Positions 18,679 through 34,981 of a DNA stretch of 64,000 bases are shown piece by piece. The notes under the pieces were generated by a model. That model had not been told where the DNA came from. It was given only the letters and a program-made list of their open reading frames with translations, and did not search any database. A program made the translations under genes and the position numbers. Position 1 is the stretch's first letter; the number at the start of each line of letters is the position of its first letter. This stretch comes from Pandoraea communis. Its GTDB lineage: Bacteria > Pseudomonadota > Gammaproteobacteria > Burkholderiales > Burkholderiaceae. The stretch is from NCBI RefSeq assembly GCF_902459745.1, contig NZ_CABPSJ010000009.1, positions 124,001 to 188,000 on the forward strand. The letters run 5' to 3'.

Positions 18679-19104
18679 ATGTCCACCGTTCACTCCCAAC
18701 GTCCCTCGATCACTGTCTCGACTCTCGACCTCGAACGCCTGGAAGCGCTTATGGCGCAGGCGCCGCGTGCGGCATTGCCGTATGTGGAGGCACTCGAAAC
18801 AGAGCTTGCCCGGGCGAGCGTCGTCGAACCGGAGCAAATCCCGGCCGATGTCGCCACGATGAATTCGGTGGTGCGCTATCGTGATCTCGCCACGCAGCAG
18901 GAGCACCGTGCGACGCTCGTGTACCCGCAGCATCTGGCGAGCACGCAAAGCGGCATTTCGGTACTGGCGCCCGTGGGCAGTGCGCTGCTTGGTCTGCGCG
19001 TCGGCCAGTCGATTCACTGGCAAGTGCCGGGTGGCCACCTGATCGAGCTGGAATTGCTCGGCATCGATTACCAGCCCGAAGCCGCTGGCGAATACCACCG
19101 CTGA
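18679..19104 (+). CDS. rnk: GreA/GreB-like protein, Rnk type (nucleoside diphosphate kinase regulator)
   Basis: 141 aa. The C-terminal half is the FKBP-like GreA/GreB C-terminal domain (MNSVVRYRDLATQQEHRATLVYP, ISVLAPVGSALLGLRVGQSIHWQVPGG, LELLGIDYQPEAAGEYHR), which binds RNA polymerase near the secondary channel. The N-terminal part is a short helix pair, not the long GreA coiled coil, as in Rnk. The symbol is by resemblance. Start at 18679; the region upstream overlaps the hemL promoter. Confidence 0.8.
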   Translation: MSTVHSQRPSITVSTLDLERLEALMAQAPRAALPYVEALETELARASVVEPEQIPADVATMNSVVRYRDLATQQEHRATLVYPQHLASTQSGISVLAPVGSALLGLRVGQSIHWQVPGGHLIELELLGIDYQPEAAGEYHR

Positions 19105-19215
19105 TTTCCCTCTGCGCATCATCACTGGGAGATTCGGATCTCCCGAGTCTCCCAACCCTCCCAGCATCTCCGAAGTTCCTCGCAGTCCCTCCGGCAGTTC
19201 CCACGTTTTCTTATT

Positions 19216-19818
19216 TCAGCGACGCAGCCAGCCGCGCGCGATTGGCCATGCCATCAGGCGGCGATAGATGCCTTCGAGGATGGCCGAGACGATACGGCTC
19301 GTTTCCCGTGCGCTCGCCGTGCGCATGATGAGTGCGGCCGCAATCGACACGACCAGTCCGCCAAGCATGTCGACCGGCCAGTGAACGCCGAGATAAATGC
19401 GTGCCCAGCACACCGGCAGCGCGCAAATCAACAGCAAGCGGCCGAGCAGGCGCGGCGTGCGTGCGGCCATCCCCATCAGGACGAATGCCGACGTGAACAT
19501 GAGCGACGCGTGATTGCTGGGAAATGCGCTGGTGGGGGCATGGGGGAGCAGGTTCGTGCCGACACCGGCGACGAACGGCCGCGGCTCGGCCCAGGCCAGC
19601 CCGATGACGAAGTTGATCAGCAGCACGAGCCCCACGCCCAGCAGACCGTGAACGGCACCTTCGCGGTCACGTCCGCCTGCAAGCCACAGGGTGACCAGCC
19701 CCACCGGGAGCAGGACGATCAGATACTTGGCGAGGAAGACGGCGACGGCCAATTCACCTTCGCTCACATTGGGCGAGGCGTTGATGGCCAGAAAGAGGGC
19801 GCGGTTGAGTGAATCCAT
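19216..19818 (-). CDS. PAP2-family membrane phosphatase (undecaprenyl-diphosphatase, BcrC-like)
   Basis: 200 aa, about five to six TM segments. The three PAP2 motifs are present: a variant first motif ending AWAEPRPF, PSNH (SAFPSNHAS) and ARIYLGVHWPVD. The overall order matches YbjG/BcrC enzymes, which dephosphorylate undecaprenyl pyrophosphate on the outer face of the membrane to recycle the cell-wall carrier. Transcribed away from the mgtA leader. Identity as BcrC-like is from size and context-free motifs only. Confidence 0.8.
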   Translation of the reverse strand: MDSLNRALFLAINASPNVSEGELAVAVFLAKYLIVLLPVGLVTLWLAGGRDREGAVHGLLGVGLVLLINFVIGLAWAEPRPFVAGVGTNLLPHAPTSAFPSNHASLMFTSAFVLMGMAARTPRLLGRLLLICALPVCWARIYLGVHWPVDMLGGLVVSIAAALIMRTASARETSRIVSAILEGIYRRLMAWPIARGWLRR

Positions 19819-20061
19819 GAAGTCCGGGAGGCCAGAGGTGACTGCCGGTGGTCAGCGGCGCTACCGGGCTGCACACGCAGTGCCGGCGCATCGACAGCCG
19901 CCGGCAGGCGGTTTGTGACGAAAACATGACGAATTCTGACTGAGCCGCTTTCCGTTGGAAAGTTGCATTTGTCATCATTTTGTAACGCGTTGAATTGTCA
20001 CTTTTCTTTCGACGCACTTGGGGGTAAGATTGCGCCGTTATAGCTTTCAGGAGGTCCTTCC

Positions 20062-20124
20062 GTGGACAGTGGTTCTAGTGGTAGTTGCCGGTCGACACAG
20101 GTCGACACCATCACCGCGAGTTAG
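20062..20124 (+). CDS. Candidate 20-aa leader peptide of mgtA
   Basis: A GTG-started ORF (peptide MDSGSSGSCRSTQVDTITAS) preceded by a textbook SD, CAGGAGG at 20048-20054, with 7-nt spacing. It is rich in Ser/Thr and holds one Cys; unlike the Pro-rich MgtL of enteric bacteria it has no proline. A GC-rich hairpin followed by TTTTATT lies 77 nt after the stop. The arrangement (strong SD, tiny ORF, terminator-like hairpin, ~600-nt leader before a Mg2+ transporter gene) suggests translation-linked attenuation. No experiment or homologue is known to me. Confidence 0.55.
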   Translation: MDSGSSGSCRSTQVDTITAS

Positions 20125-20201
20125 TCCCCGGGATCTTCCCCGCCGCTGACTCGCATAGTCGGGTTGGCGCGCACCTCTGATGTACGTCTCGATTGCCCTG
20201 T

Positions 20202-20232
20202 CCCCTTGGCCCGCATGCCAAAGGGTTTTATT
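20202..20232 (+). terminator. Terminator-like hairpin in the mgtA leader
   Basis: CCCTTGGC, a 6-nt loop, GCCAAAGGG (one bulged A), then TTTTATT. It lies downstream of the leader peptide and ~430 nt upstream of mgtA, with no gene end next to it, so it would act as an attenuator or as a conditional stop. Confidence 0.55.
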
Positions 20233-20414
20233 GGGTCATACCGATAGCGTCCGTCTTTCGTAGCACGCTCCCTAATTAGCTTTACATCTGCCGTTCGGGC
20301 TGTCCCGCCGTGCGCGTGTGTTCGTTTTCGGGCCGTTTGCCGTTGTGCACCGGTCGCCGGACTCGATCTCATCGCCTGCGCCGGGCGGATTGCCGCGCGG
20401 CCGGGAGATTCATC

Positions 20415-20600
20415 GTGTTCCGTTACTCAATGACCCTTCGCAGCGGTAATCCGCAAGCCCTGATGCTGCCGAGCGAGTGCCTGCATCACTATCACGTCGA
20501 TCCGCATCCGGAAGCCACCGAAACGGTGCGTCCGGGCGCAGGGGCGCGTCTCGGGCAGTGGCTGCGGGCGTTCGTGCGCCGCGAAAAAACGGCGGGCTGA
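20415..20600 (+). CDS. Small protein upstream of mgtA with a Cys/His cluster
   Basis: 61 codons from a GTG with SD GGGAG at 20403-20407 (7-nt spacing). An internal ATG at 20430 is a possible alternative start. The centre holds C22, H24, H25, H27 and H31 (CLHHYHVDPHPE), a composition that could bind a metal ion; the C-terminus is basic (WLRAFVRREKTAG). No TM segment. It ends 68 bp before mgtA on the same strand and so is probably in the same transcript. I do not recognise a family. Confidence 0.5.
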   Translation: MFRYSMTLRSGNPQALMLPSECLHHYHVDPHPEATETVRPGAGARLGQWLRAFVRREKTAG

Positions 20601-20668
20601 GCCTGCCTTACGACTTTCGGGGGCGCAGGCGGTTCACCGGTGCCCCGGACATTTTCAGGATGTATCCG

Positions 20669-23410
20669 ATGCAACAAGCTCTCACGCTCAGCGAGCGACT
20701 GATTGCGGTGCTTGGCGCGCGCCTTGGGCTGCGCTTCTTCCGTCGCCGCGACATGCTCGAAACCCTCGACGCACCAGCGCACGGCCATGAGGCACCGCCG
20801 GGTCTCGTCGACGCCGCCCGCGACGCCGGCCCGGATCTGCTCGCACGGCTGAGCACCACCCGCGACGGGCTGTCCGACGACGAAGCCGCCACCGTGCGGG
20901 CACATGTCGGTGCCAACGAAGTCGAGCACGAAAAGCCGTTGCCCTGGTGGCGGCACCTGTTCAACTGCTACCGCAATCCGTTCAATCTGCTGCTCTCGGC
21001 ACTGGCCGCTGTGTCATTTGCGACCGACGACACCGAGGGAACGATCATCATCGCGTCGATGGTGATCATTTCCACGGTGTTGCGATTTGTGCAGGAAGCG
21101 CGTTCGAACAAGGCTGCGGAGAAGCTCAAAGCGATGGTGAGCACCACGGCCACGGTGCTGCGCCGCGAGGCGCTGGGCGACGGTGGCGCAGAGCCCGACA
21201 ACGTGCGCCGTCTGGGCCGCATGGGCCGCGAAATTCCGTTGGCGGAACTCGTGCCGGGCGACATCGTGTTGCTCGCGGCCGGTGACATGATTCCGGCGGA
21301 TGTACGCATTCTCGCGGCCAAGGACTTGTTCGTCTCGCAATCGGCCCTCACCGGCGAGGCGCTGCCTGTCGAGAAATTTGCGCACGCGTGCGAGTCCGGC
21401 GGGAGCAATCCGCTCGCTTACGACAATCTCGCCTTCATGGGCACGAACGTTGTCAGCGGCTCGGCCACGGCGGTGGTCGTGGCAACCGGTGCGCGCACCT
21501 TCTTCGGCTCGCTCGCGCAGCGCGTCACGGCGCTGCAACCGACGGTCACGTCGTTCCAGCAAGGCGTGAATCGCGTGTCGTGGGTGCTGATCCGCTTCAT
21601 GATGGTCATGACCCCCATCGTGTTGCTCATCAACGGCTTTACCAAGCACGACTGGCTCGAAGCCTCGTTGTTTGCGCTGTCGGTGGCGGTCGGTCTGACA
21701 CCTGAAATGCTGCCGATGATCGTGACGGCTACGCTGGCGAAGGGTGCGGTCGTGCTCTCGCGCAAGAAGGTGATCGTCAAGCGGCTCGATGCGATTCAGA
21801 ACTTCGGCGCGATGGATGTGCTGTGCACGGACAAGACCGGCACGCTCACACAGGACAAGATTTGTCTTGAGCGTCACACCGATGTCTGGGGCCATGGCTC
21901 CGAAGACGTGCTCGAGTACGCCTATCTCAACAGCTTCTACCAGACCGGACTGAAGAACCTGCTCGATGTGGCGGTGCTCGATCATGCGGAGTTGCACCAG
22001 CGTCTGGACGTGGTGAACCGCTACCGCAAGATCGATGAGATTCCGTTCGATTTCCAGCGCCGTCGCATGTCGGTGGTGGTCAGCGAGAACGGTGCGCATC
22101 ACGAGTTGATCTGCAAGGGCGCGGTGGAAGAGGTGATGGCGGTGTGCGACCGTGTGCAGCACGGCGCGAATGTCGAACCGCTGACGCCCGACGTGCTGGC
22201 TCGCCTGCGTCGCGTGACGGCCGATCTGAACGCCGAAGGGCTGCGCGTGGTGGCGGTGGCGACGCGTCATTTGCCGCCCGTGCGCGAGCGCTATGGGGTT
22301 GCGGACGAAAGCGAACTCGTGCTCGTCGGCTACATTGCGTTTCTCGATCCGCCCAAGGAGTCGACGGCGCCCGCGTTGACGGCGCTCGCGGCGGCAGGCG
22401 TCGACGTCAAGGTGCTCACGGGCGATAACGATCTCGTGACGGCGAAGGTCTGCCGCGAGGTCGGCCTGAAGGTGAACGGCTGCGTGTTGGGCGATGACAT
22501 CGAGGCGATGAGCGATGCGGAACTGGCGCAGACCGTCGAGCGTGCCAACGTGTTCGCGAAGCTCACGCCGGCGCACAAGGAACGGCTCGTGCGGATGCTG
22601 CGTGCGAACGGTCATGTGGTGGGCTTCATGGGCGACGGCATCAACGATGCGCCGGCGTTGCGTGCTGCGGATATCGGCATCTCGGTGGATACGGCGGTGG
22701 ACATCGCCAAGGAGGCGGCCGATATGATCCTGCTCGAGAAGAGCCTGATGGTGCTTGAGCAGGGGGTGATCGAAGGGCGTCGCACGTTTGCGAACATGCT
22801 CAAGTACATCAAGATGACGGCCAGCTCGAACTTCGGCAATGTCTTCTCGGTGCTGATTGCGAGTGCGTTCTTGCCGTTCCTGCCGATGCTGCCGTTGCAG
22901 TTGCTCACGCAGAATCTGCTTTACGACCTGTCGCAAACGACGATTCCGTTCGACAACGTCGACGACGAGCAACTGACGCGGCCGCAGCGCTGGAACCCGG
23001 CGGATCTGTCGCGCTTTATGGTGTTCTTCGGCCCGATCAGCTCGATTTTCGACGTGCTGACGTTCCTGGCGATGTGGCACCTGTTCGGCGCGAACAGCGC
23101 CGAGCACCAGACGCTGTTCCAGTCCGGCTGGTTCGTCGAAGGGCTGTTGTCGCAGACGCTGATCGTGCATCTGATCCGCACGCGCCGTATTCCGTTCGTG
23201 CAGAGCCGCGCCGCGTGGCCATTGCTGCTGATGACGGGCGCGGTGATGCTGATCGGCCTGATGCTGCCGATGTCGCCGTTTGCGGACACGTTCAAGATGC
23301 AGGCGCTGCCGCTCGCGTACTTCCCGATGCTCGCCGCCATCCTCCTCGCCTACGCCGTGTTGACGCAGTTGATGAAAGGCATGTTTGCACGACGGTTTGG
23401 GTGGCAGTGA
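20669..23410 (+). CDS. mgtA: Mg2+-importing P-type ATPase (MgtA/MgtB, type IIIB)
   Basis: 913 aa. The phosphorylated Asp is in CTDKTGTLTQD, the TGE loop is SALTGEALPVEK, and the hinge is GDGINDAPALRAADIGISVD. The N-terminal cation ATPase domain includes EHEKPLPWWRHLFNCYRNPFNLLL and the C-terminal TM set ends with the LAYFPMLAAILLAYAVLTQLMK block typical of MgtA. It imports Mg2+ at the inner membrane. The ATG at 20669 has AGGA 8 nt upstream; an ATG 9 bases earlier lacks room for an SD. Long regulated leader upstream, see the entries at 20062-20600. Confidence 0.93.
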   Translation: MQQALTLSERLIAVLGARLGLRFFRRRDMLETLDAPAHGHEAPPGLVDAARDAGPDLLARLSTTRDGLSDDEAATVRAHVGANEVEHEKPLPWWRHLFNCYRNPFNLLLSALAAVSFATDDTEGTIIIASMVIISTVLRFVQEARSNKAAEKLKAMVSTTATVLRREALGDGGAEPDNVRRLGRMGREIPLAELVPGDIVLLAAGDMIPADVRILAAKDLFVSQSALTGEALPVEKFAHACESGGSNPLAYDNLAFMGTNVVSGSATAVVVATGARTFFGSLAQRVTALQPTVTSFQQGVNRVSWVLIRFMMVMTPIVLLINGFTKHDWLEASLFALSVAVGLTPEMLPMIVTATLAKGAVVLSRKKVIVKRLDAIQNFGAMDVLCTDKTGTLTQDKICLERHTDVWGHGSEDVLEYAYLNSFYQTGLKNLLDVAVLDHAELHQRLDVVNRYRKIDEIPFDFQRRRMSVVVSENGAHHELICKGAVEEVMAVCDRVQHGANVEPLTPDVLARLRRVTADLNAEGLRVVAVATRHLPPVRERYGVADESELVLVGYIAFLDPPKESTAPALTALAAAGVDVKVLTGDNDLVTAKVCREVGLKVNGCVLGDDIEAMSDAELAQTVERANVFAKLTPAHKERLVRMLRANGHVVGFMGDGINDAPALRAADIGISVDTAVDIAKEAADMILLEKSLMVLEQGVIEGRRTFANMLKYIKMTASSNFGNVFSVLIASAFLPFLPMLPLQLLTQNLLYDLSQTTIPFDNVDDEQLTRPQRWNPADLSRFMVFFGPISSIFDVLTFLAMWHLFGANSAEHQTLFQSGWFVEGLLSQTLIVHLIRTRRIPFVQSRAAWPLLLMTGAVMLIGLMLPMSPFADTFKMQALPLAYFPMLAAILLAYAVLTQLMKGMFARRFGWQ

Positions 23411-23415
23411 AGTAG

Positions 23416-24627
23416 CTATTGCGGACGGGGCAGGCGAGAGGTGGTTGAGCGCAGTGGGCTTCGGGCGAAGAGGCCAAGTCCCACTGCCGACACGCCCGCA
23501 ACCAGGAACACGAGTTCGATGCTTGTGACGCTTGAGAGCGCTCCACCGGCCAATGGTGCGGTGATCAAAACCAGCAGTTGAAGGCTTCTGCCGGTCGAGG
23601 TCACTGTGCCTAGCGTTTCGCGAGGGCACTCGCGTTGAAACGTCACCATCATCAACATGACACCGAGTCCATACCCGAGCCCGTTGCCGATCCATAGGCA
23701 GAGCATGAGGGGCAACGGTACGGTGACATCCGCGTACACCATGACGGCCGGTATCAAAATCGTTAGCCCGAACAGTGAACAGGATGTTGCGAGCAATGTC
23801 GTTGATTTGCATAGCCTGACGGCGTGCCGGAAGACAAAGGCACCGATCATCGCACCCGCCGCCGTACAGCCGACGATGCTGCCGAAGGTACCGTCCGGAT
23901 AACCGCGCGCCTTCAGGAAGAGGGATAACAGTGCATCGTAAAAACCAAGGATGAACGCTTGGCAAAGCGTCACGATAAACACGCGCCTTAACACGGCGTG
24001 ATCACGCAATATCGAGTGGAATACCGTCCAGAGCGGGCGGGTTCGTTGGGTGGAGTGATGGACGCCGGTGTTGATAGGTGTTCTCGATCCCGACACGAGC
24101 AAGAAACCAGCTACACCAAGCGCTGCGGAAATAGTGAAGCCGGAAAAGCCGGCATAAGCGGTGAAGGCTGCAACGAGAGGCGCAACGAGTTTGGTGATTT
24201 GATCAATGAGCGTTACTCGCCCTGCGTTCGCGGGAAGTGCGTTGTCGTCGAGAAGATGCCGGAAGAGTTGTTGTTCGGCAGGGGCTGGCGCGATGTTGGA
24301 GAGCCCCTTGAGTGCGACGCATGCTAGGAATATGTCGAGCGTCGGTGCTTGCCAGAGCGCGATGGCGGAGAGCACTCTCACGACATAGCTCCAACGCAAG
24401 AGACGCCATGGGCAGACTCTATCTGCATAGGCGCCCAGCCATGGCCCGAATAGTACGCCGGGTAAGCCATACAGCATCATGGCTAAACCGACCGAAACAG
24501 CGTCTGCGTTCCAGCGGAATGCCAGATTCTCGAAGATCAACGTGAAGTCGATCCACAAGATGGCGGCCCCCACGGAACGGGAGGCGAGAAGGCGTGGGTA
24601 GTTTCCGATGTGGGGGGATGGGGTCAC
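23416..24627 (-). CDS. MFS transporter, last gene of the peptide-modification operon
   Basis: 403 aa, about 12 hydrophobic segments, major facilitator type. The loop-2/3 motif is GPWLGAYADRVCPWRLLRWS (the GxxxDRxxRR-type signature in altered form). Such proteins export drugs or small natural products by proton antiport. Its ATG overlaps the stop of the carbamoyltransferase gene by 4 nt (ATGA), so it is part of the SagB-carbamoyltransferase operon and probably exports that product or provides self-protection. GC content is lower than that of the chromosome around it. Confidence 0.82.
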   Translation of the reverse strand: MTPSPHIGNYPRLLASRSVGAAILWIDFTLIFENLAFRWNADAVSVGLAMMLYGLPGVLFGPWLGAYADRVCPWRLLRWSYVVRVLSAIALWQAPTLDIFLACVALKGLSNIAPAPAEQQLFRHLLDDNALPANAGRVTLIDQITKLVAPLVAAFTAYAGFSGFTISAALGVAGFLLVSGSRTPINTGVHHSTQRTRPLWTVFHSILRDHAVLRRVFIVTLCQAFILGFYDALLSLFLKARGYPDGTFGSIVGCTAAGAMIGAFVFRHAVRLCKSTTLLATSCSLFGLTILIPAVMVYADVTVPLPLMLCLWIGNGLGYGLGVMLMMVTFQRECPRETLGTVTSTGRSLQLLVLITAPLAGGALSSVTSIELVFLVAGVSAVGLGLFARSPLRSTTSRLPRPQ

Positions 24628-26210
24628 GACGTCTCTCCAAGTATTTCGGCGGGGCTGTTTTTTCGCATATAGAGCCTATCCTCAATGACAAATCCATCCA
24701 GATGGACCTCGCGCGCATAGTTGGCCAGATCGGAACCTCGGTTGATGAAGTCCGTACCGTTGAAATTCAACGACGTATTACAAAGCACGCCAACGCCGCA
24801 GAGTTTTCGAAATTCGGAAAGAACTGAATGAAGCGCAGCATTTTGCTCATAAGTCACTGTCTGAACTCGCGCAGATCCATCCACATGAGTGATAGCTTGG
24901 AGATGCGGGTTTAGAACCTGATGGAAGAAGAGCATGTAGGGGCTAGATTTGGCCGGGGAAAAATGCTCACCGACCTCCTCTGCACTGCAAACTGGGGCGA
25001 TTGGTCGAAATGACTCTCGCCGCTTTAGTTGATTCAATCGAAGAAGTGTCTGTTTGCTAAATGGGCTCGCCAAAATTGAGCGATTACCAAGTGCGCGCGG
25101 TCCGATTTCCGCGTTTCCTCTCGCCCAACCCAGAATTGCTCCGTCGTGAAGGTACTTTGCTATATCTGCTGGTGTCGCTTTTGTGCAGACAAAATCTCGA
25201 TACTCAATTTCGTCAACCACAAACGGCTGGCCTGAGTACACGGACCAATTGAGTTTCGCTGAGCCAGTGAGCACAAATTGAGCATCTGCTGCGGTGCCTA
25301 TGGCGGAGCCACTATCGTTGGCGCAAGGCGGAACAAAAACGTCAGAAAAAAGCCCCGTGGCGGAGAGGGACGAGTTCCATTCGCAATTTAGCCCGCACCC
25401 TCCGGATATGAGTAAGGGGGACTTTCGCGTAATGCACGGGCTGATACGAGTGATAAAACGCTGAAGAATTGCGTCGGATATCAGGCGAGAAAATCGTTTT
25501 CCTGTTGTAGACGTTACGCCGCAGTTAAACTGAGAGAACGCTCGGAAATCGGATTTCGAGAATTTCGGGATTTTCTCGGGATTCGAGAGTAAAGCGCTGA
25601 CGAGATATTGCTCTTCTTGAGTCGGAGAAAGCTCATCTTCGTAGGCGGCCAACGCCATGAGCTTTCCTGCATCGGACAATCGTATTGCCCCGGGAGAGAG
25701 ATCAAATGATGGGTCCATTAGCCCATAGGCGAACGCATATCTAATACCAGGACCCCACATAACGTCGCACAGAAGACTGATGTTCATCGCATCGTCAATC
25801 TCATAAAAGCGTCCTATATGTCCCTCCCATACCAATGCGTAACACGGAACCCCTTGGGGGAATGGTGATAACGCGTAAGAACAGAGAATGTGAGATCGCT
25901 CATGCGATGAGGAAATTAGTTTGATATGTCGACCAAAAATTTCCACCTGTCTGATTTCCGGGGCTTCAAGTCCTAAGTAGCCGCTGCCAATCTTACGCCT
26001 TGCGCCTCCCCGAATTTCGTCCCAGCCGCTAATTGCAATCGCATCAGGTTGGGCTCGGGAGAATTCAAAGGAATCAATTATGCTAGTGACATCTAATGGA
26101 GAAAAACGAGAAGCGGAATCTTTCTCCGCCTCGTGCGAGAATTTTAGGAATTCATCGCTGACGTAGACCGATGATCCATCGTGCCCCGGTTTAAATGACA
26201 AGATTTTCAA
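24624..26210 (-). CDS. O-carbamoyltransferase, TobZ/NodU/CmcH family
   Basis: 528 aa. The N-terminal Kae1-like part has GHDGSS and the metal-binding His pair in SSHERSHILCSYA; the C-terminal YrdC-like part has SGGCGLNCEWN, CANDSGSAIGTAADA, ARGNAEIGPRALGNRSIL, FRPIAPV and NTSLNFNG. The family makes carbamoyl-adenylate from carbamoyl phosphate and ATP and moves the carbamoyl to a hydroxyl of an antibiotic or Nod factor. Slightly short (~570 usual) and poorly conserved in its first 100 residues, so it may have an unusual acceptor. Overlaps both neighbours by 4 nt; clearly AT-richer than the flanks. Confidence 0.85.
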   Translation of the reverse strand: MKILSFKPGHDGSSVYVSDEFLKFSHEAEKDSASRFSPLDVTSIIDSFEFSRAQPDAIAISGWDEIRGGARRKIGSGYLGLEAPEIRQVEIFGRHIKLISSSHERSHILCSYALSPFPQGVPCYALVWEGHIGRFYEIDDAMNISLLCDVMWGPGIRYAFAYGLMDPSFDLSPGAIRLSDAGKLMALAAYEDELSPTQEEQYLVSALLSNPEKIPKFSKSDFRAFSQFNCGVTSTTGKRFSRLISDAILQRFITRISPCITRKSPLLISGGCGLNCEWNSSLSATGLFSDVFVPPCANDSGSAIGTAADAQFVLTGSAKLNWSVYSGQPFVVDEIEYRDFVCTKATPADIAKYLHDGAILGWARGNAEIGPRALGNRSILASPFSKQTLLRLNQLKRRESFRPIAPVCSAEEVGEHFSPAKSSPYMLFFHQVLNPHLQAITHVDGSARVQTVTYEQNAALHSVLSEFRKLCGVGVLCNTSLNFNGTDFINRGSDLANYAREVHLDGFVIEDRLYMRKNSPAEILGETS

Positions 26211-27265
26211 TGACGCACCTTCTGCTTTTGAAAGTTCTGTAAGGCCGTTAGCGCGTCTTTAGCAACGGCGCCCGTGCCGTAACCCGCCCCGAGAAAGAAG
26301 AGCGTCGATTCGGTCACTCCGTCGACCTGAAGCAGCGAGTTCGCCTCAGCGTCTACAAAATATCCTGTGGGCCATGACTGGATTCCCTGGGCGGCGGAGA
26401 CTAGTTGAAACGTCTGGATCAGACATCCCACGTCCATTAGTGCGACACGGTACGCTCTTGAGTGGGGGTATTTCCACCAGAGTTTATCGAAGCGTGACGT
26501 GATGAATACCCCATAAGACAGGCCGTCTGCGACTGTCTGATTGCAGAGAACGTGACATATATTCTCCCTGCTGGGTGCTTCAGATATATAGGAGAGTTCG
26601 TGCCGTATTGATCGATAGTGATACGTTCCCGGGCGTAGCCCGGTCACGTTGAACGCAATCAAATATGGTTCGCTTGCCTGCATTGACCCACCTGATGGCG
26701 AGGTCCTACGGTACCCGATCGGCATCAATCCGGCTTCTTCGAGGTCTGAGCGGGAACCGCCGTGAATTGCGCCAAATGTTGCCCAGAGTGAATTCGCGAC
26801 CTCTTGCAATGAGATTGCTTTGCCATCGAATGCGCGGCAAGTTGCTCGTTGCATCAGCGCCGTGCCGAGATCACAGGTGTTTATCGTCTGGGGCGGCGGT
26901 AAAGGGGTGATGGGTCCGGGGCGAATGATCTCGACGGGAGGGATGGAGTTCGCGAGCGATGTGCAATGCTCAATGTAGCCGAGGTACGGAACTTCCTCAG
27001 CGGGGACGTCCGTCCGTGGAACTTGAGTTCCAACATGAAAAATCCTCGATAAGCAGTCCCATCCCCAATCGGCGGGGTCGCCTTGCGTAAGCAAGCCTGC
27101 TTCTGCTAGATCTTTGTCCACCCCCATTTCACTTTTGGGAGTTCCCCTAAGAAGTTCGAGAAGTCTTGCGATATGATCTGGGTCGATTTCGTATTGTTTA
27201 TGTTGCAGGTAATTCCAAAGAATTAATTTTCCATTCAGTATCTTAAGAAATGCTGTGGGGGTCAT
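26207..27265 (-). CDS. SagB/ThcOx-type FMN-dependent dehydrogenase
   Basis: 352 aa. An N-terminal ~125-residue part of the SagB kind (LILWNYLQHKQYEIDPDH, WDCLSRIFHVGTQ) is followed by the nitroreductase-fold FMN domain: QRATCRAFDGKAISL, RRTSPSGGSMQASEPYLIAF, GLRPGTYHYRS, FDKLWWKYPHSRAYRVALMDVG and LFFLGAGYG. SagB enzymes oxidise azolines to azoles in thiazole/oxazole-modified peptides, working with a YcaO cyclodehydratase; no YcaO gene is present here, so the substrate is different or the partner is elsewhere. First enzyme gene of the operon, 58 bp after the candidate precursor peptide gene. Confidence 0.83.
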   Translation of the reverse strand: MTPTAFLKILNGKLILWNYLQHKQYEIDPDHIARLLELLRGTPKSEMGVDKDLAEAGLLTQGDPADWGWDCLSRIFHVGTQVPRTDVPAEEVPYLGYIEHCTSLANSIPPVEIIRPGPITPLPPPQTINTCDLGTALMQRATCRAFDGKAISLQEVANSLWATFGAIHGGSRSDLEEAGLMPIGYRRTSPSGGSMQASEPYLIAFNVTGLRPGTYHYRSIRHELSYISEAPSRENICHVLCNQTVADGLSYGVFITSRFDKLWWKYPHSRAYRVALMDVGCLIQTFQLVSAAQGIQSWPTGYFVDAEANSLLQVDGVTESTLFFLGAGYGTGAVAKDALTALQNFQKQKVRH

Positions 27266-27280
27266 TGTTTCTCACTAATG

Positions 27281-27309
27281 GGCGCTCAGGGTCAGTGACT
27301 CCGAGCGCC
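27281..27309 (-). promoter_or_regulatory. Hairpin between precursor peptide and SagB genes
   Basis: Outer stem GGCGCTC / GAGCGCC (7 bp) and inner stem GTCA / TGAC form a strong imperfect hairpin. No U-run follows on the minus strand, so it is better read as an mRNA-stabilising or partial-termination element that would favour the peptide message over the enzyme messages, a common layout in RiPP operons. Confidence 0.55.
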
Positions 27310-27323
27310 AAGTTGCGTAGTAA

Positions 27324-27413
27324 TTAATTGCTGGACATCGGGCTCGTGTGAGGCGTGTTATATGCGTCGTTCGACTGGTTGGATAAGGATGATTCGATCT
27401 TGACTTGCTTCAT
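27324..27413 (-). CDS. Candidate RiPP precursor peptide, 29 aa
   Basis: A 29-aa ORF starting MKQVKIESSLSNQSNDAYNT and ending PHTSPMSSN. It has a good SD (AGGAGA, 6 nt before the ATG) and is on the strand of the SagB-carbamoyltransferase-MFS operon, directly upstream. Basic/hydrophobic residues (KQVKI) head the peptide; the rest is Ser/Thr/Asn/His/Pro-rich with one Tyr and no Cys. That gives many hydroxyl groups for an O-carbamoyltransferase but no thiols. It resembles no precursor class I know. Evidence is position, SD, hairpin and composition, not homology. Confidence 0.6.
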   Translation of the reverse strand: MKQVKIESSLSNQSNDAYNTPHTSPMSSN

Positions 27414-27935
27414 GGAATTTCTCCTGTTGAAAAGCTTGTGGCTCGTTTGTTTCTTGCCCGGAGGGCGCTCGAATAATCGTTCCATTTTCTTTTAATGTCT
27501 TTTGGATTTTGTCAGTAGTATTTGGACTACGATATAACTAAAGTGTGATGAATGAATATATTCGGCTATTTGGGAAAATTCAGTCGGGCGCGAGGTCCGT
27601 GGTGAATGATCTGAAGTGGTTTCGGGATAGTCTGACCTTTGGCGCGCGGCAAAGCGCGAGCGACGCTCGGTGTTACTCACGCGCTAGAAGGCGTGGCCCA
27701 CAACCAGATAGAGGGGAGCTTTCATACGGGGTCACGGACTTCGCTGGCGATGCCTTGAACCCCTGAGCTTCAAGGAAGTGTTCATTTCGCCGGGGCTTGT
27801 ATGGATCGCGAAAATCGGACGTCGCGTCGCCGGGGATGGTTTTTGATTACGTGCGAGACGGGACTCCACCACGTGGATCACGGCGGCGAGCGTGCCGCCA
27901 CCGGTCGTCATGACATCAATGATTTACCTAGCCTG
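27414..27935. other. 522-bp gap: operon promoter region and non-coding DNA
   Basis: The first ~130 bp (27414-27545) are AT-rich and must carry the leftward promoter of the peptide operon; a small inverted repeat GTAGT-6-ACTAC (27515-27530) lies there. The remainder has ordinary GC and short frames on both strands without SD or family resemblance, probably the decayed boundary of the inserted operon. Nothing else is recognised. Confidence 0.45.
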
Positions 27936-28439
27936 TCAATCATCAACCCAGGTCCCTGACGGCCGGTCGAAGTGCTGGCTGCGGGGCGCGAAGACGTCGC
28001 TGGCATCGTCCAGTTCGAGTGTCACGTCGAGCGCACCATCGTTGTCGCGTTTAGCGCTTCCCAACGGATCGTTGCAGCATAGCCACAGCGACACGTCCGA
28101 GGGCATCCCATCGACGCGGAATGACTTGTGCTTGCCGATGAGAAACGGCTGCCCGTCCTTGCCGAATCGTCCGATCAATTGCCCCATCAGCGCGTCGGGG
28201 CCGTGATACGGATACCCGTCATCGCCCGAGACATTGTGCAGATACGTTGCGCCGGAATTCGGCGTGCGCCCGTCGGCGTCGCGGCGTCCGAACTTGCGGT
28301 CGTCCGTACGCGTGCACCATTCGCCCGACGCCCGCAGGATCACTTTCGGTGCAGACTGTGCACCGATCCTGTATCCCGTGTCCTGCCAGCCTTCCGAGGC
28401 GTACACCTTCATGCGCTTGTTGATGCGATCTGTCGTCAT
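27936..28439 (-). CDS. LecA/PA-IL-like lectin-domain protein
   Basis: 167 aa, no signal peptide. The layout resembles the calcium-dependent galactose lectin PA-IL (LecA): an early beta strand with a Trp-Gly turn (VYASEGWQDTGYRIG), YPYHGPDALMGQLIGRFG in place of the LecA Ca-loop region, and CNDPLGSAKRDNDGALDVTLELD matching the D-x-x-x-T/S-x-x-N-N/D calcium and sugar loop. The ATG at 28439 follows GGAG by 6 nt and is preferred over the ATG at 28451. It lies 72 bp downstream of a small HTH gene that may control it. Similarity is moderate and the sugar ligand is unknown. Confidence 0.6.
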   Translation of the reverse strand: MTTDRINKRMKVYASEGWQDTGYRIGAQSAPKVILRASGEWCTRTDDRKFGRRDADGRTPNSGATYLHNVSGDDGYPYHGPDALMGQLIGRFGKDGQPFLIGKHKSFRVDGMPSDVSLWLCCNDPLGSAKRDNDGALDVTLELDDASDVFAPRSQHFDRPSGTWVDD

Positions 28440-28511
28440 GACACGCTCCATCGTTGACGGGGGGCCGAGAACGGATTGGCGGGTGCTGGTGCTTCGTTAC
28501 GCAAAGTGCAG

Positions 28512-29039
28512 TCAGTTCGAGTGTAGACGCACCGCTTCGCTGCCTGAAGCGTAACTGCGGAGTCCCGCCTCCAAACGGCGTTTCGGCGAGACGGCGATGC
28601 CCAACTCCGCATACAACTCGTCGAGGGCCTCGCGCGTGCCGACGAGCAATGCTGTGGTTTGCCCGCTGATGTCGGTGACAACGCTCACGAGCGTTTTTCC
28701 CTGACACGTTTCGCGCGCCGCGACGAACTGCGTCGACGTCAGCGCGGCGAGTGTGGCGAAGCGCTCCGCCTGCACCAGGCCGTTGATCTGGAACACCGGC
28801 TGCGCGGCACCGGTGGCGCGCGGCGCGAGCCGTACGTGAGTGCCGTCGCTGTAGGTCCCGAGCGCCGCGAACAGTTTTTCCCGGCCTTGCGGTCCCAGCG
28901 CACAGTGATCGCCATGTACCCAGCGCGAAATCGTGTTGCCGGTGATGCCGGTCGCGTAAGCGAGCCGGGCCAACGTGATTCCCGAGAGCTTGATGAGCAG
29001 ACGGGCGACGGTGCGGTGACGCTGTTCGATGTCATCCAT
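28512..29039 (-). CDS. XRE/lambda-repressor-like HTH regulator
   Basis: 175 aa. N-terminal HTH: LLIKLSGITLARLAYATGITGNTISRWVHGD, the recognition helix region being GNTISRWVHG. The remaining ~100 residues form a domain I do not recognise (LVSVVTDISGQTTALLVGTREALDELYAELG). The start at 29039 has AGGA upstream; an upstream in-frame extension to 29201 is low complexity. Directly upstream of the lectin gene on the same strand, so an operon or local regulator is likely. Confidence 0.68.
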   Translation of the reverse strand: MDDIEQRHRTVARLLIKLSGITLARLAYATGITGNTISRWVHGDHCALGPQGREKLFAALGTYSDGTHVRLAPRATGAAQPVFQINGLVQAERFATLAALTSTQFVAARETCQGKTLVSVVTDISGQTTALLVGTREALDELYAELGIAVSPKRRLEAGLRSYASGSEAVRLHSN

Positions 29040-29107
29040 AACGGGTGTCCTGTCGTAAGGGCATTCAGGCGACGTGCTTGGCGCGCGGTGACGGAGCGTG
29101 TGCGGAG

Positions 29108-29989
29108 TCAGAACGCCATCGTCACTTCGAGTTGGGTGTCGATCTCTCTGCGAAGCGCGGGCGTGCAAGGCATGAGGGGCCGGCGAACCGTTTCCGGACA
29201 CAGCCCCAGTGAAGCGAGTGCGGCTTTGATCGCCACTGGGTTCGGCTCGGAAAACAGCCGGCGAATGAGCGGCTTCATCCCGTTGAAGAGCGTCGTCGCG
29301 TGGGCCATGTCGCCCTCACGCACGTAGCGGAACAGCTTCAGATAGAGGTCGGGCCGAACGTGAGCCGCCGCCGAGATGCATCCGACGGCGCCCGCTTGCA
29401 GGGCAGGCAGCAACTGCATGTCGTCGCCGCACAGCACGCGCATGGTGACCTGCGACGGCAAATGCAGGAGCGGATGCGCGTCGCATTCCTTGATTGCCGC
29501 GAACGCGTCGTGCGACGCCAGCTCACGGATCGTCTCCACCCCAAGTGTCACCCCGGTGCGCAGCGGCACGTTATAGAGCACGAGCGGTTTGCGCGTGCCC
29601 GCCGCCAGCGTTCGGTAGTGCCAGAGAATGCCCTCCTGCGACGGGCGCAGATAGTACGGCGGAGGCACGAGATATCCGGCAAGCGGCAGGTCTTCGATGT
29701 TGCGAATTTGCTGCGCGGCGTTGGCCGTATCGGCCGCGCCGACACCGGCCACCACCGGCGCATGTCCGTGCGCGAGATGGCAAGCCGTCTCGACGAGCCA
29801 GCGGCGCTCGTCGTCGTCCAGCAATGTGCCTTCGCCCGTCGTGCCGGCCACGACCAGGCCGTTCACTCCCGCAGCAAGGTAGTAGTCGACCAGACGCGCG
29901 AAGGCGTTGCGATCGATCTGAGCGCCATTGGCGCCGGTCATGGGCGTGACGAGTGGAATCCACACGCCTTCGAAGATGGCTGTGTTCAT
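29108..29989 (-). CDS. DapA/N-acetylneuraminate lyase-family aldolase
   Basis: 293-aa TIM-barrel Schiff-base aldolase family: GVWIPLVTPM at the start, GLVVAGTTGEGTLLDDDE (the substrate-carboxylate TTGE motif), the catalytic Tyr in LVLYNVPLRTG, and the Schiff-base Lys in AAIKECDAH. Length matches 4-hydroxy-tetrahydrodipicolinate synthase, but many paralogues act on other 2-oxo acids and no lysine-pathway gene is adjacent. No SD is evident before the ATG at 29989. Gene symbol withheld. Confidence 0.8.
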   Translation of the reverse strand: MNTAIFEGVWIPLVTPMTGANGAQIDRNAFARLVDYYLAAGVNGLVVAGTTGEGTLLDDDERRWLVETACHLAHGHAPVVAGVGAADTANAAQQIRNIEDLPLAGYLVPPPYYLRPSQEGILWHYRTLAAGTRKPLVLYNVPLRTGVTLGVETIRELASHDAFAAIKECDAHPLLHLPSQVTMRVLCGDDMQLLPALQAGAVGCISAAAHVRPDLYLKLFRYVREGDMAHATTLFNGMKPLIRRLFSEPNPVAIKAALASLGLCPETVRRPLMPCTPALRREIDTQLEVTMAF

Positions 29990-30054
29990 ATCAGGGGAGC
30001 AGGGTTGTGCGCAGAGCGAGAGACGCATCGAAGCGACGCCGGAATGTCGGTGGC

Positions 30055-30537
30055 TTAGGCCGCAGCGCGCAGACGCAACGCGCCGAACTCGGCTTCCGGT
30101 AACGATTGCATGACGACGTGCATGGCCCGTGAGGCTTCGATGCGCGGCAACGCAATCGACACCACGGCCGCGGTATCGCGCCGGATCGGACGAATCGTCT
30201 CGACGCGCCATGGCAGCGGCAGACTCATCGCCAACGTGATGGCAAGCGTCGAGACGGCAGCGCGGCTGAGCGTGATGTCGAGCGTTGCGTCGAGGCGAAC
30301 GCGAGGGGTGTGTCGATTGCGTTGCCGCGGTGTTGCGAAAACGTCGGTCGGGGGGAGGGTTTGCGTGCTCGCCGGCGTGGCGGCGATGGCAGTGCCGGTG
30401 GCGGTGGCCGACGCGCGCGCCGCAGGGGCGGGCGTTGTGCCGTAGGCGTGGAAAGCGTCGGCCGGCGTGGCGTTCGCACCAGGAGGTTCGAGTCTGGCGC
30501 GCTGAGCGATGGTAGGCATGGCAACGTGTCGATTCAC
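30055..30537 (-). CDS. Hypothetical small protein, possible ACT-like domain
   Basis: 160 codons from a GTG (or 154 from the ATG at 30519). The first ~75 residues are Ala/Pro/Thr-rich low complexity. The C-terminal ~85 residues alternate as strand-helix-strand-strand-helix-strand (RLDATLDITL; SRAAVSTLAITLAMSL; WRVETIRPIRRD; TAAVVSIALP; EASRAMHVVMQSLPE; FGALRLRA), the beta-alpha-beta-beta-alpha-beta order of ACT and other ferredoxin-like domains. That is a pattern reading, not a homology call. The gene is cut off from edd by a strong terminator. Confidence 0.45.
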   Translation of the reverse strand: MNRHVAMPTIAQRARLEPPGANATPADAFHAYGTTPAPAARASATATGTAIAATPASTQTLPPTDVFATPRQRNRHTPRVRLDATLDITLSRAAVSTLAITLAMSLPLPWRVETIRPIRRDTAAVVSIALPRIEASRAMHVVMQSLPEAEFGALRLRAAA

Positions 30538-30576
30538 GACAAGAGTGACAACGGGGCCAGTCTAGGGAGGCGCAGA

Positions 30577-30605
30577 TAAAAACGGCGTCAAGATTTTGAC
30601 GCCGT
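30577..30605 (-). terminator. Intrinsic terminator of edd
   Basis: Perfect 10-bp stem ACGGCGTCAA / TTGACGCCGT with a 4-nt loop, followed on the minus strand by a run of five T. It lies 40 bp after the edd stop codon. Confidence 0.88.
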
Positions 30606-30644
30606 ACAGACAAGGGGCAGAGGTGCGTGCGGCGGCGCTACGCC

Positions 30645-32492
30645 TCAGCGCTGCGACGGATATTGCGCGTCGTTAAACAGCACGCATGCGCCGTGCGGTG
30701 CGGTGCCGACATTGTCGCGGAAGAGCCGGAACACATTGCGCCACGGGTCGAATGGCCGTTGCGGCATGGGCTCCGGCGTGCGAGCGGCGAGCGTGGCGTC
30801 GTCGACTTCGCAATGCAGCAGGTTCTTTTCACAGTCGATGGTGATGATGTCGCCGTCCTGCACGCGTGCGAGCATGCCGCCTTGCTCCGCTTCGGGCGAG
30901 AGATGGATGGCCGCCGGCACTTTGCCCGATGCTCCCGACATTCGCCCGTCAGTCACAAGCGCCACATGGTGGCCTTCGTCCTGAAGCAGACCGAGCATCG
31001 GCATGAGCTTGTGCAACTCGGGCATACCGTTCGCGCGCGGCCCCTGGAAGCGCACCACGACGATGACGTCGCGCGTCAATTCGCCCGCCTTGAACGCGGC
31101 CTGTGCCGATTCCTGATCGGAGAACACGCGCGCCGGGGCGCGCACCGTCTGATGTTCCGGTTTGACGGCAGACGACTTGATGACCGCGCGTCCCAGATTG
31201 CCCTCGAGCATGCGCAACCCGCCTTCGCGGGCGAAGGGCCGGGATGCCGGACGCACGATGGTCTCGTCGAGGCTGTCGCTGGGGGCGTCGTGCCACGAGA
31301 GCACGTCGTCGTGCAGAAGCGCTTCCTGCGTATACGCGCGCAGACCGTGTCCCATGACCGTGGTCACGTCGTTGTGCAGGAAGCCGGCGTCGAGCAGTTC
31401 GCGAATGAGGAAATTCAGGCCGCCAGCGGCGTGGAACTGATTCACATCGGCCTTGCCGCTCGGATAGACATGAGCGAGCAACGGCGTGACGTCCGACAAA
31501 TCGGCGAAGTCCTGCCAGTCGAGCAGAATGCCGCCCGCATGGGCCATGGCGACAAGGTGCAGCGTATGGTTGGTCGAACCGCCCGTGGCGAGCAAACCGA
31601 CAACGCCGTTGATGAACGCGCGTTCATCGAGAATGTGAGACGTATTGATGCCCGACTTCGCCAGCGCCACGGCGCGTGCGGTCGCCGCTTGTGTGAGCGC
31701 ATGACGCAGCGGCGTGTGCGGATTGACGAACGACGCGCCCGGCAGATGCAGCCCCATGAACTCCATGAGCATCTGATTGCTGTTGGCCGTGCCGTAGAAC
31801 GTGCAGGTGCCTTCCGTGTGATACGCGGCCAGTTCGGCGTCGAGCAGCGCCGCGCGCGTGATGCGGCCGGCGGCGTATTCCTGCCGGATGCGCGACTTCT
31901 CGTCGTTGGGCAACCCCGAGGGCATCGGGCCGGCCGGGGCGAACACGGCGGGCAAATGACCGAACGCCTGCGCGGCGATCACGAGCCCCGGCACGATCTT
32001 GTCACACACACCGAGGAACATCGCGGCATCGAACATCTGGTGCGAGAGCGCAATGACCGAGGCCATGGCGATCACGTCGCGCGAGAACAGCGAGAGCTCC
32101 ATCCCGGCGTACCCCTGCGTCACGCCATCGCACATCGCGGGCACGCCGCCGGCCACCTGCGCGCTCGCGCCGTGGGCCCGTGCAGCGGACTTGATGATGT
32201 CGGGGAACTCGGCGAACGGTGCATGCGCCGAAAGCATATCGTTGTAAGCGGTGACGATGCCGATGTTGGGTGTGCGCTCGGCGCGGATCTTGAGACGGTC
32301 GTCGGCGGGGGCGGCTGCCAGCGCGTGCGCGAGGTTGGCACACCCCAGCGTCTCGCGCCCGGGTTGCCCCTGCGTGGCGCGGGCGACGCCTTCCAGATAA
32401 GCCTGACGAGACGACCGGCTGCGCTCGATGAGGCGCTCGGTCACGCGTTCTACCACCGGATGCAGCGACACGTTGTGCGAAGACTGAGTCAT
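30645..32492 (-). CDS. edd: Phosphogluconate dehydratase (Entner-Doudoroff)
   Basis: 615 aa, IlvD/Edd family. It dehydrates 6-phosphogluconate to 2-keto-3-deoxy-6-phosphogluconate using a 4Fe-4S cluster. Visible: RTPNIGIVTAYNDMLSAHAPF, the cluster cysteines in VPAMCDGVTQG and FLGVCDKIVPG, GTCTFYGTANSNQM (third Cys), LATGGSTNHTLHL and the C-terminal VTDGRMSGASGKVPAAIH. The start at 32492 gives the standard N-terminus. Divergent from zwf with a HexR operator in the 259-bp gap. No eda gene is in this cluster. Confidence 0.95.
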   Translation of the reverse strand: MTQSSHNVSLHPVVERVTERLIERSRSSRQAYLEGVARATQGQPGRETLGCANLAHALAAAPADDRLKIRAERTPNIGIVTAYNDMLSAHAPFAEFPDIIKSAARAHGASAQVAGGVPAMCDGVTQGYAGMELSLFSRDVIAMASVIALSHQMFDAAMFLGVCDKIVPGLVIAAQAFGHLPAVFAPAGPMPSGLPNDEKSRIRQEYAAGRITRAALLDAELAAYHTEGTCTFYGTANSNQMLMEFMGLHLPGASFVNPHTPLRHALTQAATARAVALAKSGINTSHILDERAFINGVVGLLATGGSTNHTLHLVAMAHAGGILLDWQDFADLSDVTPLLAHVYPSGKADVNQFHAAGGLNFLIRELLDAGFLHNDVTTVMGHGLRAYTQEALLHDDVLSWHDAPSDSLDETIVRPASRPFAREGGLRMLEGNLGRAVIKSSAVKPEHQTVRAPARVFSDQESAQAAFKAGELTRDVIVVVRFQGPRANGMPELHKLMPMLGLLQDEGHHVALVTDGRMSGASGKVPAAIHLSPEAEQGGMLARVQDGDIITIDCEKNLLHCEVDDATLAARTPEPMPQRPFDPWRNVFRLFRDNVGTAPHGACVLFNDAQYPSQR

Positions 32493-32648
32493 GGTGATTC
32501 CGTGACGTTGTGGGGCGTCCGATGCGGGGCGGCGCAACCGGCGCGTTAGACGCCTGCGACACCGTTCGCATGCCGGCTCGACGTGATGCCCTGTCCTAAA
32601 TCATCGGCGGATGATGTAGTCAAAGCACGAGATTTTGTTGATTCGAAG

Positions 32649-32663
32649 TGTAGTTAAACTACA
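32649..32663. promoter_or_regulatory. HexR operator
   Basis: TGTAGTTAAACTACA matches the known HexR consensus TGTARTWWWAYTACA at all positions and is an almost perfect palindrome. It lies between the divergent edd and zwf genes, 88 bp before zwf. A weaker partial copy (TGTAGT then CAAAGCACG) is at 32615-32629, nearer edd. The regulator is encoded in the same cluster, as the C-terminal half of glk-hexR. HexR releases DNA on binding KDPG. Confidence 0.85.
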
Positions 32664-32751
32664 ATGCAGTGTCAAAGTTGCGCTTCTTCAGTGACATCCG
32701 ACCGTCTGCCAAGTTCGGTCGTCGTCAGGTCGCACGGAGTCCACGCTCGCT

Positions 32752-34227: not shown

Positions 34228-34303
34228 GACGGATCGCCGGGCGGGGCACGGTCATCGTTCGGCGCGGCCAGTCCGCAGCCAAGGACACCGGAGGCAGACA
34301 CAC

Positions 34304-34981
34304 ATGATTCACTGGCGCATATTCCCTACACGTGAAGCCCAGGCGCTGGCTCTGGCCAATGCCGTTGCCGCACGGCTCGACGAAGCGCTGACCATTCGTC
34401 CGCGCGCGCTGTTGGCCGTGTCGGGCGGCACAAGTCCCAAGGCATTTCTCTCGCAATTGGCGCGGTTGCCCGTGGCGTGGAGAGACATTGCCATCACCCT
34501 CGTCGACGACCGCTGGGTGCCGCCTGTGCATGCCGATAGCAATGCGCGTCTGGTCGCCGAGACACTGCTGCCCGGCGTAACGGGCGCGCAATGGTTGCCG
34601 CTTGTCGACACGGCGACCGATGCCGCGCTGCAAGTGCAAACCCTCAACGACACCTGGACGCATGGCGTGCCGCAAGTGTGCGTGCTCGGCATGGGCGAGG
34701 ACGGGCATACGGCATCGCTTTTCGCCGACGCACCGCAATGGCGCGAGGCGATTACCACTCACCGCAAGTTCGTCCTCGTACAGCCGCAGCACGCGCCGCA
34801 TCTGCGCGTGTCGTGGTCGCTCACGGCACTGGCGGCTTGCGAGCGCCTCATTCTGCAGATTCAGGGCGCCGCCAAACGCGAAGTGCTGGAAGCCGCGCAA
34901 ACCGAGGAACAGGACAACGCCATCTCCCGGCTGATTCACAGAGAAGGAGTCAAGATCGATGTCTTCTGGAGTGAGGAATAA
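34304..34981 (+). CDS. pgl: 6-phosphogluconolactonase
   Basis: 225 aa, DevB/SOL type. Marks: [32 protein letters not shown] and [15 protein letters not shown]. It hydrolyses the lactone made by Zwf. GGAGG lies 10 nt before the ATG. Its 3' end overlaps the 5' end of the glk-hexR frame by 23 nt if the first ATG there is used. Confidence 0.94.

Follow-up and report, generated by a model that had tools for sequence, protein, structure and literature searches.

A conserved short peptide gene beside SagB-type dehydrogenase and carbamoyltransferase genes in Pandoraea communis defines a putative RiPP family with exchangeable tailoring enzymes

In a 64,000-nucleotide stretch of the Pandoraea communis genome (contig NZ_CABPSJ010000009.1, positions 124,001 to 188,000; hereafter the window, from whose first letter positions are counted), four genes on the minus strand at 23416-27413 encode a 29-residue peptide, a SagB-like dehydrogenase, a carbamoyltransferase and a transporter of the major facilitator superfamily (MFS). 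This arrangement raises the question of whether the short open reading frame (ORF) at its head is the precursor gene of a ribosomally synthesized and post-translationally modified peptide (RiPP) and, if so, which reactions the neighbouring enzymes would carry out on its product. The data presented here place the locus in a real, conserved family of RiPP loci with swappable tailoring enzymes, which is apparently undescribed and whose chemistry we infer by comparison. A preliminary description had noted a leftward operon with two 4-nt overlaps, an ORF of 29 codons with a good ribosome-binding site at its head and an AT-richer composition than its surroundings, all of which is borne out: sagB and the carbamoyltransferase gene overlap at 26207-26210, the carbamoyltransferase and MFS genes overlap at 24624-24627, and G+C content is 0.531 within the operon versus 0.634 in its flanks. 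Of the ten loci measured, nine have an operon richer in A+T than its flanks, the exception being L022, the copy of genome G005.

The peptide gene (27324-27413, minus strand; ATG at 27413, stop at 27324) follows a Shine-Dalgarno sequence, AGGAG (27421-27425, minus strand), located 7 nt 5' of its start codon, and its product, MKQVKIESSLSNQSNDAYNTPHTSPMSSN (29 aa; leader MKQVKIE, remainder LSNQSNDAYNTPHTSPMSSN), has no family match in Pfam or NCBIfam. In a first survey, which listed ORFs with a Shine-Dalgarno sequence 5' of SagB homologues irrespective of their sequence, a short ORF occupied the same place in five other Pandoraea genomes with intact sagB, in the disrupted copy of genome G007, in a proteobacterial metagenome-assembled genome and in four Pseudomonas genomes, and additional Pseudomonas carbamoyltransferase loci provided more peptides. 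These peptides, which we call type A, include MKLIQLEPTLSNQSNDAYNTPHTAPMKAN (P. eparura), MRRIFLEPSLSHQSNDAYKRLIQPAPPLSR (the metagenome-assembled genome) and MRKANLQTRLTALSNNAYNILITPAKSESKLVS (Pseudomonas), and all of them share an S-N-D/N-A-Y motif. Residues L10, S14, N15, A17 and Y18 are invariant in the 16 distinct type-A peptides, and six of the seven Pandoraea peptides are identical across the segment LSNQSNDAYNTPHT. The preliminary description had proposed looking for a short ORF ahead of sagB in related operons, and such an ORF proved to be conserved in 17 type-A loci. Furthermore, substitutions in the peptide gene point to purifying selection, with pN of 0.175 and pS of 0.810 in five Pandoraea and dN/dS of 0.32, 0.05, 0.28 and 0.17 in four further groups (an ungapped comparison of the first 55 codons in the case of the four long Pseudomonas type-A peptides). 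Because it is conserved, we take the peptide gene to be more than a chance ORF, and this sequence evidence indicates that it is a real coding gene under selection for its amino-acid sequence.

To place this operon among its relatives, we scanned genome contigs and kept 80 of 96 relatives. In eight of the 80 a carbamoyltransferase adjoins SagB, with one of these loci truncated where its contig ends. Most of the other relatives combine SagB with an AurF-like protein (PF11583) and an MFS protein, preceded by a different short peptide such as MKAITLEANKIANLAFLVAPKAR (type B), and four loci combine SagB with an MFS protein only and encode peptides resembling MKTVILESKELAAFSLIGMPK (type C). With duplicates dropped before counting (L027-L029 as copies of L018, L019 and L021; L164-L165 as copies of L039 and L033), the family comprises 89 loci with a peptide, encoding 64 distinct precursors of 21 to 58 aa: 17 loci of type A, 67 of type B, many of which are close relatives and not independent, four of type C and a single aberrant one, G015 from Pandoraea, in which a downstream 91-aa ORF begins like the AurF-like protein. 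The type of peptide is strictly paired with the partner enzyme, the gene content presenting no exception (a carbamoyltransferase in 17/17 type-A loci, the AurF-like protein and MFS in 67/67 type-B loci, and MFS only in 4/4 type-C loci); four Pseudomonas type-A loci (L031, L032, L166 and L169) add a tetratricopeptide-repeat methyltransferase. On a SagB tree built with 18 of the 67 type-B loci and nine of 17 plus four type-A loci, the type labels require six changes, the minimum possible; the branch holding all type-B members has weak support (83/66), and that uniting A and A' has 88/78. One strain, P. lactis DSM 29167, carries type-A and type-B loci on the same contig (L101 and L039).

The N-terminal ends of these peptides are alike across types. 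Among the 64 distinct peptides, position 7 is E or Q in all, position 6 is hydrophobic in all, and position 4 is I or V in 60; position 2 is partly circular, since the later peptide rule required K, R, N, Q or M there, as well as an ATG and a Shine-Dalgarno sequence (the L023 and L173 peptides were taken from earlier surveys, outside this rule). This conservation suggests that the peptides consist of a common leader followed by varying cores, and the loci thus present a short encoded precursor, with putative leader and core, adjoining modifying enzymes, as in RiPP systems. As a control, the same rule was applied to nine more distant SagB loci, seven of which had no candidate and two of which (L130 and L134) had ORFs unlike those of the family, a rough comparison in that most of the SagB starts were estimated. 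Within the family, the sole locus in which no peptide was found is L093, where sagB is truncated and accompanied by AurF-like and MFS genes. In a separate draw of 398 genomes of the phylum, four Pseudomonas genomes (G189, G341, G398 and G365) also presented a B- or C-type peptide ahead of SagB, and 21 genomes of this draw matched the SagB profile at 1e-25: five belong to the family (the window's own and four from Pseudomonas, one of them interrupted), the L112/L130 neighbour lacks such a peptide, and the others are more distant.

The enzyme families named in the preliminary description were confirmed, each with scores above Pfam or NCBIfam cut-offs. The SagB protein (352 aa; 26207-27265, minus strand), of the SagB/ThcOx type of FMN dehydrogenases, matches PF00881 (Nitroreductase), its single Pfam domain, and TIGR03605 (103.9 bits, cut-off 78.4), and it is not fused to a multinuclear non-heme iron-dependent oxidative enzyme (MNIO). 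Its AlphaFold model adopts a nitroreductase fold, with structural matches that include ThcOx, BmdC and McbC; the nitroreductase domain spans approximately residues 116-334 (26264-26920), and K265-Y266 (26468-26473) aligns with the KY pair of McbC and ThcOx. Residues 1-61 (27083-27265) are predicted to fold as a domain resembling a RiPP recognition element (RRE), the leader-binding element of many though not all RiPP pathways, in a structure comparison with RRE entries that we take to be CteB and McbB, among others; this domain gave nothing credible in Pfam, and a PDB sequence search with it returned weak matches only, to coiled-coil constructs and others.

The NodU/TobZ-type carbamoyltransferase (528 aa, TTG start; 24624-26210, minus strand) scores 82 bits against PF02543 (cut-off 24) and 175.6 bits against PF16861 (cut-off 27). 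Its C-terminal half was aligned with GdmN, TobZ and the novobiocin carbamoyltransferase, presumably the NovN of structure 9s2t, and the motifs SHExSH and GPRALGxRSI are invariant in ten aligned members of the family. The MFS protein (403 aa, GTG start; 23416-24627, minus strand), a presumed exporter, matches MFS_1 (PF07690) above the cut-off. In one Pseudomonas locus without SagB or peptide motif (L170), a relative of the carbamoyltransferase adjoins an apparent second carbamoyltransferase.

The peptide is very probably the substrate of SagB, and the nature of that reaction can be approached through the cores. In an ungapped line-up of the type-B, type-C and G015 peptides, position 14 is L or M in type B, F in type C and W in G015, and P20 occurs in 32 of the 44 distinct type-B peptides, in all three of type C and in G015. 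Type-A peptides are offset by four extra residues, so that Tyr18 aligns with position 14 of the other types. Because these residues coincide, and because PflD has a nitroreductase domain that forms Z-dehydrophenylalanine in a YcaO-free RiPP of Pseudomonas (PMC12636437), we propose that SagB desaturates residue 18, a tentative assignment that may well prove wrong. In kind, the PflD domain is the closest case characterised so far. The carbamoyltransferase would act on the invariant Ser14 or Tyr18, the best candidate acceptors, or possibly on an amine after leader removal; that the peptide or a fragment of it is carbamoylated seems more probable than otherwise, with less assurance than for SagB.

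Two other accounts of these enzymes have to be weighed against this reading. The preliminary description invoked SagB-type enzymes acting on peptide azolines, which fits the data poorly, and azoline oxidation was rejected as the main SagB reaction: YcaO is absent from the four genes of the block, as had been described, no match to PF02624 (YcaO) was obtained at E 0.001 in five of the six operon-bearing Pandoraea genomes searched (G007 being left out), so that the combination of YcaO and dehydrogenase that marks thiazole/oxazole-modified microcins (TOMMs) is found neither in the block nor in those five genomes, and 20 of the 44 distinct type-B peptides have no Ser, Thr or Cys after position 10. 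A version of this account in which SagB oxidises azolines as in TOMMs or linear azol(in)e-containing peptides, with another part of the genome supplying the cyclodehydratase (YcaO), could draw on the membership of the SagB family, on the Ser and Thr residues of type-A cores and on the one YcaO encoded on another contig of the window genome (G000), but we regard it as very unlikely. More weight attaches to the idea, still an unlikely one, that SagB modifies the peptide while the carbamoyltransferase acts elsewhere, on a small molecule or on a late fragment (for instance its N-terminal amine) rather than on a hydroxyl of the intact precursor. The carbamoyltransferase was found in 10 of 398 Pseudomonas genomes (E up to 1e-90), seven with the peptide, among them L167 and L168, whose sagB frames look interrupted, and L173, where sagB is deleted; SagB and the peptide motif are both missing from the remaining three (L170-L172). 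This gene content suggests that close relatives of the enzyme also work elsewhere and weakens the case for tying it to peptides alone. In the available parts of the reports, moreover, StdF carbamoylates a Lys amine (PMC13174530), and the timing of CgnI is open, carbamoylation being drawn after leader removal (PMC10070186). Against this stand the occurrence of carbamoyltransferase and sagB in the same seven of 32 Pandoraea genomes, the 4-nt overlap of their genes, and the invariance of S14 and Y18 in 16/16 peptides.

The remaining alternatives concern the peptide itself. Between its stop codon and the sagB start lies a hairpin of 12 pairs without a T tract (27281-27309, minus strand), with a fold z of -4.53 and no equally stable structure in 200 shuffles; across the 82 loci folded, a set that includes many close relatives, z for this gap was below -1 in 78 and never exceeded 0 (L023, L093 and L102 not counted, and four loci with gaps under 35 nt not folded). 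Such a hairpin could be expected if the short ORF were a regulatory leader peptide, an attenuator, for enzymes making a non-peptide metabolite. No terminator was scored there, however, and because it lacks a T tract the hairpin is less likely to end transcription than to set the ratio of precursor to enzyme transcripts. The upstream regulatory ORF was rejected on the codon-level conservation of the peptide, which preserves amino-acid sequence, not codons, and includes no single-amino-acid run; the peptide type also tracks the tailoring enzyme, SagB has its RRE-like domain, and the block revealed no further biosynthetic gene, leaving this explanation most improbable. Rather less unlikely, though we doubt it, is that the peptide serves as a carrier: one or two of its core residues would be turned into a small molecule, which would then be cut off and exported by the MFS protein. 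PQQ and mycofactocin are small molecules built on a peptide carrier and then released, and crocagin offers a similar case. Only five residues are invariant in type A, C-terminal tails differ between peptides in both sequence and length, and the transporter is of the MFS type rather than a peptide ABC exporter, all of which a carrier would explain; yet the block showed neither a protease nor an additional cyclising enzyme, and the near-identity of LSNQSNDAYNTPHT among Pandoraea peptides argues the other way.

Comparison with known systems bears on the claim of the preliminary description that the locus fits no RiPP class, which stands for its gene content, within the searches made, although both enzyme types have RiPP precedents (CgnI and StdF; PflD). 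In the sections of PMC12636437 considered, PflD and PosD likewise place a SagB-like domain on a RiPP precursor without YcaO, but theirs is an MNIO fusion with a long nitrile hydratase-like leader peptide (NHLP) and an HEXXH partner, in contrast with the MNIO-free SagB, its predicted RRE-like domain and the short precursors found here. A Pseudomonas locus resembling the pos/pfl clusters (L132, 3571-7555), with an Os17-family NHLP precursor and a PosD-like MNIO-nitroreductase fusion, gave the best SagB-profile match in the phylum draw of 398 genomes after the family itself and L112; long branches make it uncertain where PosD belongs among the outgroups, and we go no further than calling it a relative. 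ThcOx (PDB 5lq4), McbC (6gos) and BmdC (7ly4) share the fold, ThcOx and McbC the KY pair, and ThcOx and BmdC an RRE or RRE-like domain, but they act on azolines, whereas the present family has no cyclodehydratase and type B no conserved Cys, Ser or Thr position. StdF, the NodU-like carbamoyltransferase of the std RiPP cluster, is described in the part of its report drawn on here (PMC13174530) as modifying Lys, with an MFS permease in the cluster, but is fused to an S8/S53 peptidase and has an MNIO and a YcaO-TfuA pair as neighbours. Crocagin, the carbamoylated RiPP of the CgnI pathway, also has Tyr in its core, but that core is built by CgnB/C/E, and no SagB is reported in the cited portion of the source (PMC10070186); neither the peptide-binding proteins CgnB and CgnE nor the dioxygenase CgnC are visible among the four genes of the block, no homology search for them having been made. 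TIGR04511 ('putative peptide maturation dehydrogenase') shows similarity in the FMN domain (E 5.2e-35), at 121 bits versus a cut-off of 240.

Distribution and context provide evidence of mobility for type A. The seven Pandoraea genomes with both enzymes carry SagB proteins at least 57% identical; in G028 the operon is split over contig ends, and in G007 (L023, 7502-15477) it is interrupted within sagB, with carbamoyltransferase and MFS genes that match in parts only and an intact peptide ORF. In the nearest genome, G005, a neighbouring gene is 97% identical, and the sequences matching 19027-23413 and 27935-36000 of the window lie 79 nt apart, so that a 4.5-kb block (23414-27934), made up of the four genes plus some 0.5 kb of upstream sequence, is missing. 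Just two more genomes were inspected, G022 and G017; both lack the operon at this position, with homology picking up again at 28462 and 28458, respectively. G005 has a divergent type-A operon of its own on another contig (SagB 57% identical). The content of the block suggests that these genes suffice. We limit the claim of mobility to type A because type B lies mostly at a single chromosomal site in Pseudomonas. The two genes upstream of the block (27936-28451 and 28512-29201) have no confident family, with one weak helix-turn-helix match below the cut-off and nothing in a PHROGs search; the former is present in G005 and, at this site, absent from G022 and G017. A sigma-70 promoter scan of 23300-28000 found none, versus a mean of 3.2 in shuffles.

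Taken together, these observations make it likely that the operon is a mobile, self-contained RiPP cassette in which modification by SagB and the carbamoyltransferase would be followed by export, with any bioactivity presumed. The 29-residue peptide would be the precursor, and its N-terminal MK-x-I/V-x-hydrophobic-E/Q segment the leader bound by the RRE-like domain of SagB. The FMN domain would then remove two hydrogens from the core (-2 Da), Tyr18 of S-N-D/N-A-Y being the best candidate for desaturation between C-alpha and C-beta, and the carbamoyltransferase, using carbamoyl phosphate and ATP, would add a carbamoyl group (+43 Da) to one of the two invariant hydroxyls. Trimming of the peptide may fall to a housekeeping protease, and the product would leave the cell through the MFS protein. 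More tentatively, the family could represent an undescribed RiPP class in which an RRE-fused SagB alone, without YcaO or MNIO, desaturates a single large hydrophobic residue, be it Tyr, Leu/Met, Phe or Trp, in precursors 21 to 58 residues long, while the second enzyme is exchangeable (an O-carbamoyltransferase with or without a methyltransferase in type A, which would have spread in part as a mobile block; an AurF-like oxygenase in type B, which is widespread in Pseudomonas; none in type C); the type-A product would be O-carbamoylated and contain dehydrotyrosine.

Several other loci came to light in these surveys. In Pandoraea G016 and G022, L025 and L026 appear from sequence to be TOMM-type loci with YcaO, SagB and an ABC transporter. 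Short ORFs also precede SagB and MFS genes on plasmids of the alphaproteobacterium Maritalea (L175, 5786-5863, ending FVLDVNGVC) and of the actinomycete Streptomyces (L176, 3391-3492, ending TMLDLNGNC, in a locus that also encodes a radical SAM protein and a methyltransferase); these may form another branch of SagB and MFS peptide loci. On a Priestia plasmid (L177, 4704-7225), a short ORF, SagB and MFS are followed, after a gap, by the nickel ABC importer genes nikA-C, which hints at a metallophore in that lineage.

In the open-access PMC literature, no description of a peptide locus with SagB and carbamoyltransferase or with SagB and AurF, nor of four peptide strings, was found among the matches listed. 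Type C, consisting of peptide, SagB and MFS, is the simplest arrangement: a single peptide and a single enzyme would be enough to test the reaction of a stand-alone SagB. Annotation readily overlooks ORFs of 21 to 58 codons, and a peptide product of many Pseudomonas may have escaped notice for this reason.

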